Positions 7,524 through 57,110 of a DNA stretch of 64,000 nt are shown piece after piece. A program made the position numbers and the translations under genes. The DNA comes from Acidimicrobiales bacterium (GTDB lineage: Bacteria > Actinomycetota > Acidimicrobiia > Acidimicrobiales > Aldehydirespiratoraceae): positions 64,001 through 128,000 of the forward strand of contig JAKMFW010000100.1 of assembly GCA_022425325.1 (NCBI GenBank). Direction: 5' to 3'. The first letter of the stretch is position 1, and each line of letters begins with the position of its first letter. The notes beneath the pieces were generated by a model that worked only from the letters and a program-made list of their open reading frames with translations, did not search any database and was not told where the DNA came from.

Positions 7524-8648
7524 ATGCAGATCGCTCCGTTCGGTGTCGAGCAGTGGATGAACGAATACGAGACCCGCTGCCGACACAACCTGGCCGAGAC
7601 CTGCTGTGACTCGATCACCGTCGAGGAGCTCCTGCAGTTGTCAGGTCAGAGCCCCGAGCATCTCCACGAACTCCTCGACATGAAGCTGACCTACGGCGCC
7701 ATCGAGGGATCCGATCGTCTGCGCTCGGCCATCGCCGCCCTGTACGAGCACCAGACCGGCGAGAACACGCTGGTCACCCACGGTGCCATCGGGGCGAATC
7801 AGCTCGTGTACCTGGCCCTGGTCGAGCCGGGCGACCATGTCGTATCGGTCGTGCCGAGCTATCAGCAACACACGTCGATCCCCGAGTCGCTCGGCGCGAA
7901 GGTCACCCAGGTGCCCCTGCGCGAGGAGCGCGGTTGGCAGCTCGATGTCGACGAGCTCGTCGGCGCGATCACGCCAGGAACGAAGGTCGTCTCGCTCACC
8001 AACCCGAACAACCCGACCGGAGCACTGCTCGAGCGGTCGACGCTGCAGACGATTGCCGATGCGTGTGAGCGAGCCGGCGCCTGGCTGCTCTGCGATGAGG
8101 TCTACCGGGGCATCGATCAGCGGGGGAGTGGGACGACGGTGTCGGTGGTCGATCTCTCCGATCGGGCGATCGCCGTCGGGTCGATGTCGAAAGCGTTCTC
8201 GCTCGCCGGGCTTCGCCTCGGTTGGATCACCGGCCCAGCCGGGCTTCTGCACGACGTCACGATCCACCGCGACTACAACACGATCAGTGTCGGCATGATC
8301 GACGACCATCTTGCGTCGCTCGCGCTGGAGAACGCCGAGGCGATCCTCGATCGCAACCGGGCGCTCGTGCGAGCCAACCTCGCCACGCTCGCTGCCTGGG
8401 TCGAGACGGAGTCCCGTGTCTCGTGGACCCGTCCTCAGGGTGGCACGGTCACCTTGCTGCGCTACGCCGCCGACCTGACCTCCCGCGAATTCTGTGTCGG
8501 CCTCGTGGAGGGCGCTGGGAGTGTGATGTTCACGCCGGGCAGCGCCTTGGGCATGGAGGGCTTCGTCCGGGTCGGTTTCGGGAACAACACCGCGGCCTTC
8601 GACGTCGGCCTGCCGCTCGTCACCGAGTACCTCGACACGTTGAGCTGA
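7524..8648 (+). CDS. PLP-dependent class I/II aminotransferase
   Basis: A 374-aa fold-type I aminotransferase. The PLP lysine lies in SMSKAFSLAGLRLGW (about residue 222). The NPNNPTG motif and the cofactor Asp in LLCDEVYRG are in their normal places, and an Arg near the C-terminus (GFVRVGFGNN) can bind the substrate carboxylate. It is closest in feel to the broad AspC-like group that includes capreomycidine-synthase-type enzymes, but its substrate cannot be read from sequence or neighbours. TAGCCT (7511-7516) is 7 nt before the ATG. Confidence 0.88.
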   Translation: MQIAPFGVEQWMNEYETRCRHNLAETCCDSITVEELLQLSGQSPEHLHELLDMKLTYGAIEGSDRLRSAIAALYEHQTGENTLVTHGAIGANQLVYLALVEPGDHVVSVVPSYQQHTSIPESLGAKVTQVPLREERGWQLDVDELVGAITPGTKVVSLTNPNNPTGALLERSTLQTIADACERAGAWLLCDEVYRGIDQRGSGTTVSVVDLSDRAIAVGSMSKAFSLAGLRLGWITGPAGLLHDVTIHRDYNTISVGMIDDHLASLALENAEAILDRNRALVRANLATLAAWVETESRVSWTRPQGGTVTLLRYAADLTSREFCVGLVEGAGSVMFTPGSALGMEGFVRVGFGNNTAAFDVGLPLVTEYLDTLS

Positions 8649-8715
8649 GCGCACGACGAGCCGAGGCATCCGCCCCTCCACCTGAGGGTCACAGCCCCTG
8701 ACTACGGTCGGCGCC

Positions 8716-11240: not shown

Positions 11241-12308
11241 ATGCGTACGGAACTCGATCCCGGTCAGTTGGGGCTCACGGTCCTGAGCCTCTACAAGCTC
11301 AAGGAGGGCGAGGTCGCCAGTGCGGTGCTGCACGTCGGTCACAAACTCGGTCTCTTCACTGCGCTCGACGAGGCCGGGCCGACGACCTCAGTCGCCTTCG
11401 CCGAGACGACGGGTCTCCACGAGCGCTGGCTTCGAGAGTTTCTGTTCCTTCTCAGCGCACTCGACCTCGCTCAACATGACGACGGCGAGTTCATGCTGAC
11501 GCCCGAGGCCTCCGTGGTGCTGGCCCAACCCGATCATCCGAACTATCAGGCGGGTGTCTTCGGGCCGCCCATCACCCAGCACGAGATCGACCGCACGATC
11601 GAGGCGTTCTCCAGCGGCATCGGCATGACCTGGGACGAACACGGGGCCGAGACCTGTCACTTCCAGGCTGCGATGGGCGCAGGCGGGCAAAAGGCCTATC
11701 TCGTCCCGGTCATTCTGGACTCGATCGACGCCATGACCGAACGCCTCCGGGCCGGGGCAACCGTTGTCGACATCGGGTGCGGCGCCGGCGTCGCCGCCAC
11801 GACGGTTGCGCAGGCGTTTCCGAACTCCACCGTGATCGGGATGGATCCCTCGAGCCACGCGATCGCTTCCGCATCCGCTCGCGCCGCCGAAGCGGGCCTC
11901 GACAATCTGTCGTTCCGGCAGGGCACCTTCGACGACCTCGGCGAGTTCGCCGACCTCGACCTGCTCCTCACGCTCGACGTCATCCATGACCTTCCCCGTC
12001 CTGGTGCGGCGGTGCGGTCGGCGCGTGAGTGTCTCGCCGACGACGGTGTCTGGATGGTCGCCGACATCCGCGCACGCGGCGGCCTCGAGGACAACCGGGC
12101 CATCCCCGTCCTGCCACTGATGTACGGCATGTCGATCCTGTACTGCATGTCGTCGGCCATGTCGGAGCCCGGCGGTGCGGGGTTCGGCACACTCGGGCTG
12201 ACCACCGGCGTGTTCGAGGAGATGACCCAGGCCGCCGGCTTTACCGGGTTCGCCAGTCGAGAGTTCGATGTCGACGCGATGAACCGGTATTACGAGGTGC
12301 GGCCCTGA
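11241..12308 (+). CDS. SAM-dependent methyltransferase with N-terminal winged-helix domain
   Basis: The 355-aa protein has an N-terminal winged-helix-like dimerisation region (about residues 20-95, with HKLGLFTALDE) and a Rossmann methyltransferase domain. Motif I is VVDIGCGAGVAAT and a following acidic residue (VIGMDPS) would bind the SAM ribose. This layout resembles class I small-molecule O- or C-methyltransferases. The substrate is unknown. GATACT (11228-11233) lies 7 nt before the ATG. Its 3' end overlaps the convergent helicase gene by 19 nt. Confidence 0.85.
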   Translation: MRTELDPGQLGLTVLSLYKLKEGEVASAVLHVGHKLGLFTALDEAGPTTSVAFAETTGLHERWLREFLFLLSALDLAQHDDGEFMLTPEASVVLAQPDHPNYQAGVFGPPITQHEIDRTIEAFSSGIGMTWDEHGAETCHFQAAMGAGGQKAYLVPVILDSIDAMTERLRAGATVVDIGCGAGVAATTVAQAFPNSTVIGMDPSSHAIASASARAAEAGLDNLSFRQGTFDDLGEFADLDLLLTLDVIHDLPRPGAAVRSARECLADDGVWMVADIRARGGLEDNRAIPVLPLMYGMSILYCMSSAMSEPGGAGFGTLGLTTGVFEEMTQAAGFTGFASREFDVDAMNRYYEVRP

Positions 12309-13852
12309 CCGCGGCGGCGCTGGCCACCCTGGCCCCCCTTGCCTTGCGCGGGTCGACCACCTGAACGCTTCTGGGGTGGCCGCCCACCACTCGCCTTCGG
12401 GCCACCCTGCTTGGGGCCTCGGTTCGGGCCACTGCGCTTCTTCGTGGCCCTCTTGCCAGCGTTCGGCCCTGGGCCCTTGCCGCCCTTGCGATGGGGTTCG
12501 CGGCTGCCTTCACCCGACTCGTCGCGATGCTGGCCACCCTGGTTCCCCCGATTGGGTTTGCGCTTCTTGGCCTTGGCGCCGGGCTTGGCGCCCCGCTTCC
12601 GAGCCTGGCCGTCGGACCTGCGGGGACGGTCATCGCGCACGCGTTCGCGATCGGCTGGTGCGGTGCGTTCCTGGATCGGCGCCATGTCGGTGGCCGTCTG
12701 CTCATGGGGGAGTGGCGCGCCGTCGATGTCGGGCGGCGGAGTGATCTCCTGCGGTAGTTCGAGTCGCCGCTTCATCCTCTGGACGTCCTTGACCTGGCCG
12801 GGATCCACGAAGGACACGACCGTGCCGCGAGCGCCTGCTCGGGCCGTCCGGCCGGAACGGTGGACGTAAGCGGAGTCCTCATCGACCGGATCGAAGTGCA
12901 CGACACACTCGACTGCATCGACATGGATGCCTCGGGCAGCGACATCGGTGGCGACCAGGGCCGCCGCCTTGCCCCGGGTGAAGTCGTCGAGGGCTCGCTG
13001 TCGCTGATTTTGTGAGCGGTTGCCATGGATCGGCACCGCCGGCACGCCGGCCCGGGTGAGTTGGCGGGCAGCGCGGTCGGCGCCATGACGAGTTCGGGTG
13101 AACACGATCGTGCGACCGAAGGTGGCGATGACCGATGCGCAGAGCGGAATGCGTTCCGGCCGGGGAAGCTTCCAGAAGTAGTGGGTCATCTTGTCGAGAT
13201 CGGGGGTGGCTTCACCGACCTCGTGACGCACGGGATCGGACTGGTACGCCTTCGTGAGTTTGGCGACCTCGCCGTCGAGCGTCGCCGAATACAGCACGGT
13301 TTGTGGGTTGTCGCCGGCCTGATCGAGCAGTCGCTTCACCGCCGGCATGAATCCCATGTCGGCCATGCGGTCCGCCTCGTCGATGACGACGTATTCGACC
13401 TCGGCGAGCGACACGACCCGTTGCTGGATCAGATCCTCGAGTCGGCCGGGCGTTGCGACGAGCACGTCGACGCCGCTGGAGAGTCGGTTGATCTGGGGCT
13501 GAAGGCCGACGCCGCCGTAGACGGCGAGTCCGTGGCGCTCGACAGCGGCGAGCATCGGCGCAAGTTCGTCATGGATCTGGCCGGCGAGTTCGCGGGTTGG
13601 TGCAAGAATCAGGACTCGGGGGCGTTTCTTGCGGGCCGGGCCGCGTTCGAGCGCCATCGCGACTGCAGGAATGCCGAACGCCAGCGTCTTTCCCGATCCG
13701 GTCGGGGCCCGACCGATGACGTCGCGACCGTCCACCAGATCGGGGATGGTCTCGGCCTGGATGGCGAACGGCTGCGTGATTCCGGAGGCGCTCAGCGCCT
13801 CGACGATGGCCGCCGGGACACCGAGCTCGGCGAACGTTGTCGGGCGGGGCAC
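12290..13852 (-). CDS. DEAD-box RNA helicase, RhlE-like, with basic C-terminal tail
   Basis: A 520-aa ATP-dependent RNA helicase. The Q motif (ITQPFAIQAETIP), Walker A (APTGSGKT), DEAD (VIDEADRMADMGF), SAT (SATLDG) and HRSGRTARAG motif VI are all present. About 140 C-terminal residues are a low-complexity Lys/Arg/Gly/Pro tail, typical of RNA-binding extensions. I chose GTG at 13852 because TACGGT at 13864-13859 is 6 nt upstream and the protein then begins just before the Q motif. The stop lies inside the convergent methyltransferase gene. Confidence 0.93.
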   Translation of the reverse strand: MPRPTTFAELGVPAAIVEALSASGITQPFAIQAETIPDLVDGRDVIGRAPTGSGKTLAFGIPAVAMALERGPARKKRPRVLILAPTRELAGQIHDELAPMLAAVERHGLAVYGGVGLQPQINRLSSGVDVLVATPGRLEDLIQQRVVSLAEVEYVVIDEADRMADMGFMPAVKRLLDQAGDNPQTVLYSATLDGEVAKLTKAYQSDPVRHEVGEATPDLDKMTHYFWKLPRPERIPLCASVIATFGRTIVFTRTRHGADRAARQLTRAGVPAVPIHGNRSQNQRQRALDDFTRGKAAALVATDVAARGIHVDAVECVVHFDPVDEDSAYVHRSGRTARAGARGTVVSFVDPGQVKDVQRMKRRLELPQEITPPPDIDGAPLPHEQTATDMAPIQERTAPADRERVRDDRPRRSDGQARKRGAKPGAKAKKRKPNRGNQGGQHRDESGEGSREPHRKGGKGPGPNAGKRATKKRSGPNRGPKQGGPKASGGRPPQKRSGGRPAQGKGGQGGQRRRGQGRTS

Positions 13853-14476: not shown

Positions 14477-14505
14477 TTGACCGAACAGCTGTTCGCAATT
14501 ACGTT
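14477..14505 (+). promoter_or_regulatory. recA promoter with LexA box in the spacer
   Basis: TTGACC (14477-14482) and TACGTT (14500-14505) are separated by exactly 17 nt, a good sigma-70-type pair. The spacer contains GAACAGCTGTTC (14483-14494), a perfect GAAC-N4-GTTC LexA operator. LexA bound here would block polymerase directly. The transcript would start near 14512, giving a leader of about 112 nt before recA. Confidence 0.85.
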
Positions 14506-14526
14506 GCTGTCATTCGTTCCCACTGG

Positions 14527-14547
14527 TCCGGGCGTGTCACACCCCCT
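14527..14547 (+). repeat. 21-nt leader motif shared with the LysM gene
   Basis: A 21-nt element around GTGTCACACCCCCT in the recA leader is repeated with 20 of 21 identities at 25346-25366, upstream of the SOS LysM gene. It includes an inverted repeat (GGGCGTG, one T, CACACCC, one mismatch). It lies downstream of the recA start site, so it may act in RNA or as a DNA operator. Role unknown. Confidence 0.6.
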
Positions 14548-14623
14548 CCGTAGGTTCGACCCCACACCCCCCAAGGCAACCAACGCCCGGTTCAGCCGGG
14601 CAGCACACAGCAGAGGAAAAACG

Positions 14624-24487: not shown

Positions 24488-25117
24488 TCAGAGCTTGCGC
24501 ATCACGGTGACGACCTTGCCGAAGATCTGCACCTCGGCCGGATCGAACACCATGTCGCTGAGCGATGCGTTGTGGGGCACGAGCACGATCTTGCCGTCGC
24601 GCTCCTGGTACGTCTTCACCGTGGCTTCCTCACCGGGGATGCCAGCGATGACGATGTCGCCCTTCGTGGCGGTGGTCTGGCTCTGGCAGACCACGAAGTC
24701 ACCGTCGAAGATCCCGATGTCGATCATCGATTCACCTCGCACTCGCAGCATGAACAGTTCGCCGTCGCCGGTGAGGTCGGCCGGCATCGGGACGACCTCT
24801 TCGATGTTCTCGGAGGCGAGTACGTCGGTGCCGGCGGCGACATCGCCGACGAGGGGGACATGGCGGACGGGGCGGCGCTCGGCGCTCGCACCGGAAAGGC
24901 CTTCGTAACGCACCTGGATGGCACGGGGCTTGGCCGGATCGCGCACGAGGTAGCCGGCGTCCTTGAGGTTGTCGAGGTGGGCCTTGACCGTTGCCGGGGA
25001 CTTCAGGCCGACCGCCTCACCGATCTCACGCACCGACGGGGGATAGCCCCGGTCGTTCTGGTGCTCGACGATGCAGTCGAGAATTTCTCGCTGTCGAGTG
25101 GTGAGTGTGTCGGACAT
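24488..25117 (-). CDS. lexA: LexA SOS repressor
   Basis: LexA (209 aa) represses DNA-damage genes and self-cleaves when RecA filaments form. The N-terminal winged helix has RQREILDCIVEH and SVREIGEAVGLKSPATVKAHL. The cleavage site is Ala95-Gly96 (DVAAGTD), with catalytic Ser130 (RGESMID) and Lys168 (ATVKTY). ATG at 25117 is chosen because the conserved N-terminus follows and GGAGG precedes it. The upstream region carries four LexA boxes, implying autoregulation. Confidence 0.97.
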   Translation of the reverse strand: MSDTLTTRQREILDCIVEHQNDRGYPPSVREIGEAVGLKSPATVKAHLDNLKDAGYLVRDPAKPRAIQVRYEGLSGASAERRPVRHVPLVGDVAAGTDVLASENIEEVVPMPADLTGDGELFMLRVRGESMIDIGIFDGDFVVCQSQTTATKGDIVIAGIPGEEATVKTYQERDGKIVLVPHNASLSDMVFDPAEVQIFGKVVTVMRKL

Positions 25118-25194
25118 GGGGACCTCCGTTGGGCCGAATTCCCGCCCCTGGCGGGCGGCCTGTGGACAAGGTGGGGATTTCTTGTGGTCGATGG

Positions 25195-25270
25195 TTGACA
25201 AACGAACAGGTGTTCGGGTTGAATGAACGAACGGTTGTTCGCCGCACACATGTTCGCCAAACATTCGTTC
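25195..25270 (+). promoter_or_regulatory. Operator cluster with four LexA boxes between lexA and the LysM gene
   Basis: Two perfect boxes, GAACAGGTGTTC (25204-25215) and GAACGGTTGTTC (25229-25240), are followed by two with one mismatch each, GCACACATGTTC (25244-25255) and AAACATTCGTTC (25259-25270). Box starts are 25, 15 and 15 nt apart. TTGACA at 25195-25200 can serve as -35 for the LysM gene, with TTGAAT (25219-25224) as a possible -10. The lexA-side promoter is not clear. Confidence 0.85.
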
Positions 25271-25345
25271 GGTGTCAAGTACCCGGGAACTCCGCTCCGA
25301 AATCCCTCACGGAAGGGGCCCGGGCGGCGACAACCTTCCATCGCC

Positions 25346-25366
25346 TCCGGGTGTGTCACACCCCCT
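25346..25366 (+). repeat. Second copy of the 21-nt leader motif
   Basis: Differs from the recA leader copy (14527-14547) at one base. Here the inverted repeat is perfect: GGGTGTG, one T, CACACCC. It ends 16 nt before the ATG of the LysM gene, where a ribosome-binding site would be expected, so a folded hairpin could affect translation. Confidence 0.6.
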
Positions 25367-25382
25367 GAAGAGACTGACTCCC

Positions 25383-25847
25383 ATGACCGCAGCTTTCGCT
25401 CCCGCCCCGCAGACCACCTTCCGCCCCCGCACCGTCGACGATCCCTCGCTTACCCCGATGCAGCGTCCGGTGTTGGTGATCGTGCCGGCGCGTGATGAGG
25501 CACCCGCCGAAGTTGCACCCCTGGCCGCCGTGTACCGCCTGCCGGTTGCCGATCAGGCGAACGTGTACCGGCGTCGCCGGCTTGCAGCGCTGGCCATCGT
25601 GGCCGGTCTCGTGCTCGGTGTGGTGTCGTTCATGCAACAGGCCGACGCGACGCCCACCCCCGAAGGCCAGCTCACCGAGTCGGTCAGCGTCGTCGTGCAG
25701 CCCGGCGACACCCTGTGGGGTATCGCAAGTGCTCTGGCACCGGAGGGTGATCCCCGAGCACTCGTCGACCAGCTCAGCGATCTTGCCGGAGGATCCCAGA
25801 TTCAGCCTGGCCAACAGCTCGTGGTGCCGCTCCACTGGATCGACTGA
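25383..25847 (+). CDS. LysM membrane protein, probable SOS cell-division suppressor
   Basis: A 154-aa protein with a cytoplasmic N-terminus, one membrane segment at about residues 67-84 (preceded by YRRRR), and an extracytoplasmic LysM domain at 103-149 (QPGDTLWGIASALAP). Divergent position to lexA and the LexA boxes upstream match YneA of Bacillus, ChiZ of Mycobacterium and DivS of Corynebacterium, which stop division during DNA damage. No hydrolase domain is visible, so binding to peptidoglycan rather than cutting it is likely. ATG at 25383 fits this layout. Confidence 0.85.
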   Translation: MTAAFAPAPQTTFRPRTVDDPSLTPMQRPVLVIVPARDEAPAEVAPLAAVYRLPVADQANVYRRRRLAALAIVAGLVLGVVSFMQQADATPTPEGQLTESVSVVVQPGDTLWGIASALAPEGDPRALVDQLSDLAGGSQIQPGQQLVVPLHWID

Positions 25848-56014: not shown

Positions 56015-56836
56015 TCAGGACTCGAAGCGGGCCCGGATCGCCGGGTTGGTGACAAACACCGGCAGGTCGTACTCGTCGAGTGCGCCGCGGCTCGGGCCGC
56101 CATCGACGTCGAGCGTCTGGCCGGTGACGTAGGCAGCGAGATCCGAGAGCAGATAGACGCACGCGTTCGCGATGTCGGTCGGTGTGCCCCGCCGACCCAG
56201 GGTGATGCCCTTGGCAAGCGGATCGTCCGGATCGTCGACCGGTCGACCGGAGCGAGGCGTGTTGACGGTGCCCGGCGCGACATTGTTGACCCGGATGCCA
56301 CGGCGACCCCACTCCATCGCCATGGATCGAGTGAGCGAATCGAGCCCCGCCTTGGCGGCGCCGTAACCGGCGAGGAGGGGCTGCCCTTTCGAGGCGATCG
56401 AGGAGATGTTCACCATCGCCCCCGGGCGAGCATCGGCGATCAGTCGAGCGGCGACGGTCTGGCAGCTCGTGAAGGCGTATCGAAGGTTGGTGGTGAGCAG
56501 ATGATCGAAGGACTCGATGGGGTAGTCGTGCAGTCGGTGCCAGTGCGGCACCGTGACCCCGCCGACGACGTTGACGACGAGGTCGACCTCGGGATGGTTC
56601 TCGATCGTCGAACGCAGCGTTTCGAGGTCGTGGACGTCGACGACGGCCGATGCGCACTGTTGTCCCCGCTGTTCGACCTCGGCCTGGGTGGCGTTGAGAT
56701 CTGCAGCAACGGCACTCAAGGCGACGATGTCGGCGCCGGCGTCGGCGAGCCGGTGACACACCGAGGAACCAATGCCGCCACCACCTCCGCCCACGACGAG
56801 GGCAGTGCGGCCGGTGAGCGAGATCTCGATCGTCAT
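56015..56836 (-). CDS. Short-chain dehydrogenase/reductase
   Basis: A 273-aa classical SDR. The coenzyme motif is GGGGGGIG near residue 16, the NNAG-equivalent is NVVGG, and the catalytic set is Ser in NISSIASKG followed by Tyr/Lys in YGAAKAG. The C-terminus has the VDGGPSRG ending. ATG at 56836 is assigned by the family N-terminus. Its promoter region lies near the LexA box of the divergent gene. Substrate unknown. Confidence 0.85.
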   Translation of the reverse strand: MTIEISLTGRTALVVGGGGGGIGSSVCHRLADAGADIVALSAVAADLNATQAEVEQRGQQCASAVVDVHDLETLRSTIENHPEVDLVVNVVGGVTVPHWHRLHDYPIESFDHLLTTNLRYAFTSCQTVAARLIADARPGAMVNISSIASKGQPLLAGYGAAKAGLDSLTRSMAMEWGRRGIRVNNVAPGTVNTPRSGRPVDDPDDPLAKGITLGRRGTPTDIANACVYLLSDLAAYVTGQTLDVDGGPSRGALDEYDLPVFVTNPAIRARFES

Positions 56837-56882: not shown

Positions 56883-56903
56883 GAACACATGTTCGTGTAC
56901 GTT
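56883..56903 (+). promoter_or_regulatory. LexA box and -10 of a small SOS gene
   Basis: GAACACATGTTC (56883-56894) is a perfect GAAC-N4-GTTC operator. TACGTT (56898-56903), identical to the recA -10, follows after 3 nt and lies 6 nt before the ATG at 56910. Bound LexA would cover the -10 and start site. Confidence 0.85.
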
Positions 56904-56909
56904 GCGAAG

Positions 56910-57110
56910 ATGGACTTCTCGGGCGACCACGAAATCGAACACTTCCGACGCTCCCTGGCGATGCTTCCCGCAGGAGCCGACGCGCTGAAACGCGAGGAGG
57001 CCATGGTGTTGCTGGGCCGGTTACGCGACGCCACCGCCCGACTGCGGCGGGTCGAGGCCGGCCTGCAGGAACTGCTCGATACCGAACTCGGTGATGGAGC
57101 AGCCCGTTAG
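56910..57110 (+). CDS. Small coiled-coil SOS protein, unknown function
   Basis: A 66-aa, highly charged, probably all-helical protein; the second half (EEAMVLLGRLRDATARL) has heptad-like spacing consistent with a coiled coil. No cysteine, no membrane segment, no recognised domain. A perfect LexA box with a recA-type -10 stands directly before the ATG, so expression should rise on DNA damage. An upstream ATG at 56889 would place the -10 inside the gene and is less likely. The 3' end overlaps the convergent hydrolase gene by 4 nt. Confidence 0.75.
   Translation: MDFSGDHEIEHFRRSLAMLPAGADALKREEAMVLLGRLRDATARLRRVEAGLQELLDTELGDGAAR

Follow-up and report, generated by a model that had tools for sequence, protein, structure and literature searches.

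Background

RecA modulators of the DinI/RecX type are small proteins of the damage regulon that tune the response, and the SOS division suppressors YneA, ChiZ/Rv2719c, DivS and SidA are small proteins induced in the SOS response. LexA-controlled antirepressors that act in trans are reported for Salmonella prophages (PMC3121763). The LexA motif of Streptomyces is tCGAAC-N4-GNNCGa (PMC9380542), and mycobacteria have a LexA-independent damage promoter, tTGTCRgtg-8 nt-TannnT (PMC5656591), which is the site of PafBC action (PMC6789036, PMC11804915). A literature search for work on LexA regulons in Acidimicrobiia found none.

The locus considered here is a small gene of a member of the Acidimicrobiales, located in a window of 64,000 nucleotides, which is the whole stretch of DNA that was analysed. 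Small SOS-controlled proteins are already known as a kind; the family to which this one belongs is absent from every library searched and is apparently undescribed. The small protein showed no sequence or fold similarity to DinI/RecX in Pfam, NCBIfam, PDB sequence or Foldseek comparisons, and, unlike the SOS division suppressors, it is without a LysM domain, a LysM candidate being already present next to lexA. Like the antirepressors reported for Salmonella prophages (PMC3121763), it is encoded by a small gene with predicted LexA control, one copy of which lies on a phage-like contig. Unlike those antirepressors, the family is mainly chromosomal, has a conserved neighbourhood in f1, and is absent from known phages. 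Here, f1 denotes the taxonomic family of the source genome, and f18, f19 and f59 denote other families of the order.

Promoter and coding sequence

The original prediction was that a perfect LexA box, a -10 hexamer identical to that of recA and a 66-codon open reading frame follow one another at this locus, and all three were found where it had placed them (Table 1); the same TACGTT hexamer also follows the LexA box of the recA promoter. The small-gene promoter carries the actinobacterial LexA box GAAC-N4-GTTC. Counting this box, an exact GAACnnnnGTTC site occurs five times in the window; other sites are located at 14483, upstream of recA, and at 25204 and 25229, upstream of lexA. LexA is encoded in the window (24488-25114) and in 38 of the 40 genomes checked, and LexA boxes in the window's genome also precede recA, lexA, imuA' and dnaE2. 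In the lexA region (24488-25847), two perfect and two one-mismatch boxes were found (25204-25270), and a LysM-domain gene, divergent from lexA and behind LexA boxes, occupies the position of SOS division suppressors.

Table 1. Features of the small-gene locus, with positions in the window
Feature	Position	Strand	Basis and remarks
LexA operator GAACACATGTTC, palindromic SOS box	56883..56894	+	exact match
Predicted -10 hexamer TACGTT	56898..56903	+	read from sequence; starts 3 nt after the box
Small protein gene, 66 aa, SOS-controlled as judged by sequence, probably leaderless	56910..57110	+	translation, codon-position test, relatives
Conserved core RRSLAMLPAG..AL.REEA..LL..L, residues ~12-39	56943..57026	+	54-member alignment and AlphaFold2; spans the end of helix 1, the turn and the start of helix 2

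Only 6 nt separate the hexamer from the ATG, and the mRNA of the small gene is therefore probably leaderless. The reading frame remains open farther upstream, to 56772; in several relatives, stop codons are found just 5' of the ATG position, and the similarity among members begins at the ATG. The start was therefore set at 56910 on the basis of the conservation, the promoter and the stops in the relatives. In pairwise comparisons of 16 members from f1, the fractions of differing sites at codon positions 1, 2 and 3 were 0.09, 0.05 and 0.50, respectively, and codons with a single change comprised 2291 synonymous and 281 nonsynonymous cases. Since the changes pile up at third codon positions, the small open reading frame is a translated and selected gene, and the purifying selection on it in f1, as measured by these substitutions, is strong.

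The part of the protein that is kept throughout the family is a two-helix hairpin of about 33 residues, E..RRSxAMLPPG..L.RE.A..LL, in which E10, R13, R14, S15, A17, M18, L19, R28 and E29 are invariant or nearly so in the alignment of 54 members. The AlphaFold2 model contains helices at residues 6-17 and 28-65 with a mean pLDDT of 90.9, and a prediction from the single sequence of a short f18 member without the C-terminal extension gave helices at 10-21 and 25-49 with lower confidence. The length of the C-terminal helix varies, and in members from f18, f19 and f59 the helix is short or absent. The description of the product as a coiled-coil protein was not upheld as a defining trait, because the coiled coil is confined to this variable helix and is missing in several members, whereas the hairpin core is kept. 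The median net charge of the members is -1, so the small protein is no obvious DNA binder; furthermore, the small size, slight acidity and invariant face of the hairpin suggest protein binding over an enzymatic or DNA-binding activity.

Extent of the family

When 61 related genomes were searched with the single sequence, 18 close members turned up in f1, along with two distant members. A profile run against 397 genomes of the order gave matches in 51 of them. Most of the order is thus without a detectable member, which suggests that the gene is an accessory rather than a core part of the response. The members examined come from 14 families of the order, and wider searches added one member in another order of the class and, at the level of the phylum, one in a Nitriliruptorales MAG. 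No significant match to the family was found in Pfam, NCBIfam or PHROGs, in a profile search of the PDB, or in Foldseek comparisons with the PDB and BFVD, in agreement with the earlier statement that the gene belongs to no recognised family.

Several genomes carry 2-4 copies of the gene, some of them decayed; five broken or degenerate copies lack an exact LexA box, and some of these share a genome with intact copies that have one. Several candidates were rejected. Three loci were weak matches or unrelated frames, and one was a truncated frame behind GAAC-2nt-GTTC. A likeness to the N-terminal region of DUF222/13E12 HNH proteins, plausible by eye, received an hhalign probability of 2%.

Conservation of the LexA box

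Sixty distinct intact members fit the core motif, and 47 of them were found by protein similarity alone. An exact GAACnnnnGTTC site was present within 170 bp upstream of 46 of these 47 members, the lone exception being a gene located 87 bp from a contig end; as background, the 35 loci contained five other boxes in 248 kb. The half-sites are common to the members, and the four centre bases vary. In 36 of the 60 members, a TAnnnT sequence starts 2-3 nt past the box, and its most frequent distance to the start codon is 6 nt. When the DNA of 85k species genomes (257 Gb) was scanned for the box together with the core motif, 35 stretches were obtained. Their sources were Actinomycetota MAGs without exception and Acidimicrobiia in nearly every case, so the pairing of box and core is specific.

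The original prediction had named a box that is not conserved where the gene is as an outcome that would speak against it. What was found is a box kept with the intact gene and absent as a clade only in f59, and this outcome therefore did not arise. The exact box at the promoter of a gene that stands alone also bears out, as far as sequence can, the view that the gene is a direct, stand-alone target of LexA.

A probable PafBC-type promoter in family f59

The f59 homologue (MRIPGPNELTSHVQVEILRRSIAM..PG..) has no LexA box, and LexA is present in four of the five f59 genomes tested. The homology of the f59 proteins to the family was supported by an hhalign probability of 95.7 (E 1e-8). Just before the ATG, 17 of the 18 f59 loci contain TGTC-N12-TA with exact spacing, usually in the form TGTCnnACCCC-N5-TA, and the distance from TGTC to TA equals that of the mycobacterial PafBC promoter. 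The middle of the f59 element is mostly nnACCCC and not RGTG, and the final T of TAnnnT is missing in most cases. Tandem WYL genes of the PafBC type are present and are located next to pafA in the window's genome, and the PafC of f59 matches the PafBC structure 6sj9 in the PDB (E 4e-19).

An over-specified pattern for the PafBC-type element matched the small gene only; once corrected, the pattern matched recA and further repair genes. TGTCnnACCCC-N5-TA occurs 2-22 times per genome, versus 0-2 times for a reversed control, the 22 elements being found in a single genome. Within the order, the PafBC-type element also precedes recA, sbcD, rmuC and the genes for an Lhr-like helicase and for DUF222-HNH proteins, and a near variant, GGTCYGACCCY-N5-TA, was found at the recA gene of f59. 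Genes for HNH proteins of the DUF222/13E12 type were found repeatedly behind the element in Acidimicrobiales, at seven loci. The element is also present, at three loci, at the gene for a small protein rich in Cys (IDCDxC...CDDCLVTYL), for which Pfam gave no match; in the window's genome (contig C36, near 8595-8682), this gene has in addition two LexA boxes, which it shares with a divergent exonuclease-like gene. The Cys-rich protein is thus another candidate for an undescribed damage-response protein.

The f59 gene follows an element with PafBC spacing, and PafBC is encoded in these genomes. Most simply, therefore, the small gene seems to have switched in f59 from control by LexA to control by PafBC. 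Since the motif differs in its middle from that of mycobacteria and often lacks the final T of the -10, PafBC control is strongly suggested rather than demonstrated. In the dual LexA/PafBC damage regulon of mycobacteria, two promoter types are found on damage genes and recA is under both, and likewise here recA carries both. In the window (14483-14556), its LexA box at 14483 is accompanied by a PafBC-type element, TGTCACACCCCCTCCGTAGGTT, at 14535, as in the dual control of mycobacteria. Unlike the genes of that dual regulon, the small gene apparently has either the LexA or the PafBC type of promoter, depending on the family.

Genomic context and alternative explanations

In f1, the small gene is found between a divergent SDR oxidoreductase gene and a convergent alpha/beta hydrolase gene; next come tRNA-Cys, tRNA-Val and a gene for chorismate mutase. 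This neighbourhood is kept within f1 and not in other families. The neighbours have no repair role, as the original prediction had noted, and they differ between families, so the small gene does not belong to an SOS operon. Because the neighbouring genes stay the same only inside a family, neither an operon nor the neighbourhood gave a clue to function.

One copy with a perfect LexA box is located at 12243-12450 of a 13.8-kb viral contig (L094), which also carries genes for an integrase, an HNH protein, a terminase, a prohead protease and a WhiB protein. No capsid gene was noticed on it, and the contig may therefore represent a satellite or an incomplete element. This copy, together with the genomes that hold multiple or decayed copies, might be explained if the protein were an antirepressor derived from a mobile element, which is controlled by LexA, inactivates the repressors of phages or satellites after damage, and was later kept in chromosomes; a precedent is provided by the trans-acting antirepressors reported for Salmonella prophages (PMC3121763). 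However, the copy on L094 was the only true match in two viral scans, another match being due to chance, and collections of 50,697 phages and 72,556 plasmids gave none. This explanation is also at odds with the common chromosomal neighbourhood and the strong purifying selection in f1, and we consider it improbable.

A cytoplasmic brake on cell division or on the initiation of replication, similar to SulA, would be in keeping with the general observation that SOS genes which are small, stand alone and are tightly repressed frequently have such a role. However, the LysM protein divergent from lexA in the window already occupies the position of the Gram-positive SOS division suppressors, and the small protein has no similarity to known division suppressors, so we give a brake of this type little credence. 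That the box serves the divergent SDR gene (start at 56836, minus strand, ~46 bp from the box) and the small open reading frame is incidental is hardly credible and largely refuted by context, since the box precedes the small gene also in families with a different neighbourhood, its distance to the start is short and similar among members, and the frame is under purifying selection.

Proposed function

As judged from its operator, the small gene is almost certainly a LexA-controlled damage-response gene. Nearly all members appear to be wired to damage regulators, LexA in most cases and, it seems, PafBC in one branch, and the product is therefore very probably a new damage-response protein; that the f59 members appear to carry the promoter type of a second damage regulator strengthens this reading. 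From the predicted sites we infer control by LexA and, in f59, by PafBC, and of the steps proposed here induction by damage through LexA has the firmest support. Without damage, LexA bound to the promoter box would keep the small gene off. Upon damage, self-cleavage of LexA promoted by RecA would free the promoter, and the leaderless mRNA would then be translated. In f59, the same protein would be driven by the PafBC-type promoter instead. RRSxAML and the RE pair make up an invariant face, which would most likely bind one partner protein of the damage machinery and tune it, and RecA or the ImuA'-ImuB-DnaE2 mutasome would be our first guesses for this partner. For the statement as a whole, that a two-helix protein made chiefly after damage binds and tunes one partner of the damage machinery, we estimate a probability of about 0.4.

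With modest confidence, a modulator of the damage machinery is the most likely role of the small protein, RecA and the mutasome being given the most weight. ImuA' was present in all 29 carriers tested and the six genomes without ImuA' were also without the small gene, a link that is weak because the genomes cluster in a few genera and because it is confounded by ancestry and by the choice of genomes. In a more far-reaching version, such hairpins are a new family of damage-induced regulators in deep-branching Actinomycetota, lineages without a known regulator of this kind; they set how strongly the mutasome or RecA acts, were handed over from LexA to PafBC in evolution and are also carried by a phage-like element. 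Taken as a whole, this version appears rather unlikely.

Conclusions

This work adds a well-supported, apparently undescribed family to the DNA-damage response of a large and mostly uncultured group of bacteria, and its layout of one gene and one operator makes it easy to test. The pattern TGTCnnACCCC-N5-TA provides a sequence definition of a likely PafBC-type promoter in Acidimicrobiia. The apparent exchange of LexA for PafBC over one and the same protein is unusual, and it offers a natural experiment in how genes move between the two damage regulons of actinobacteria.
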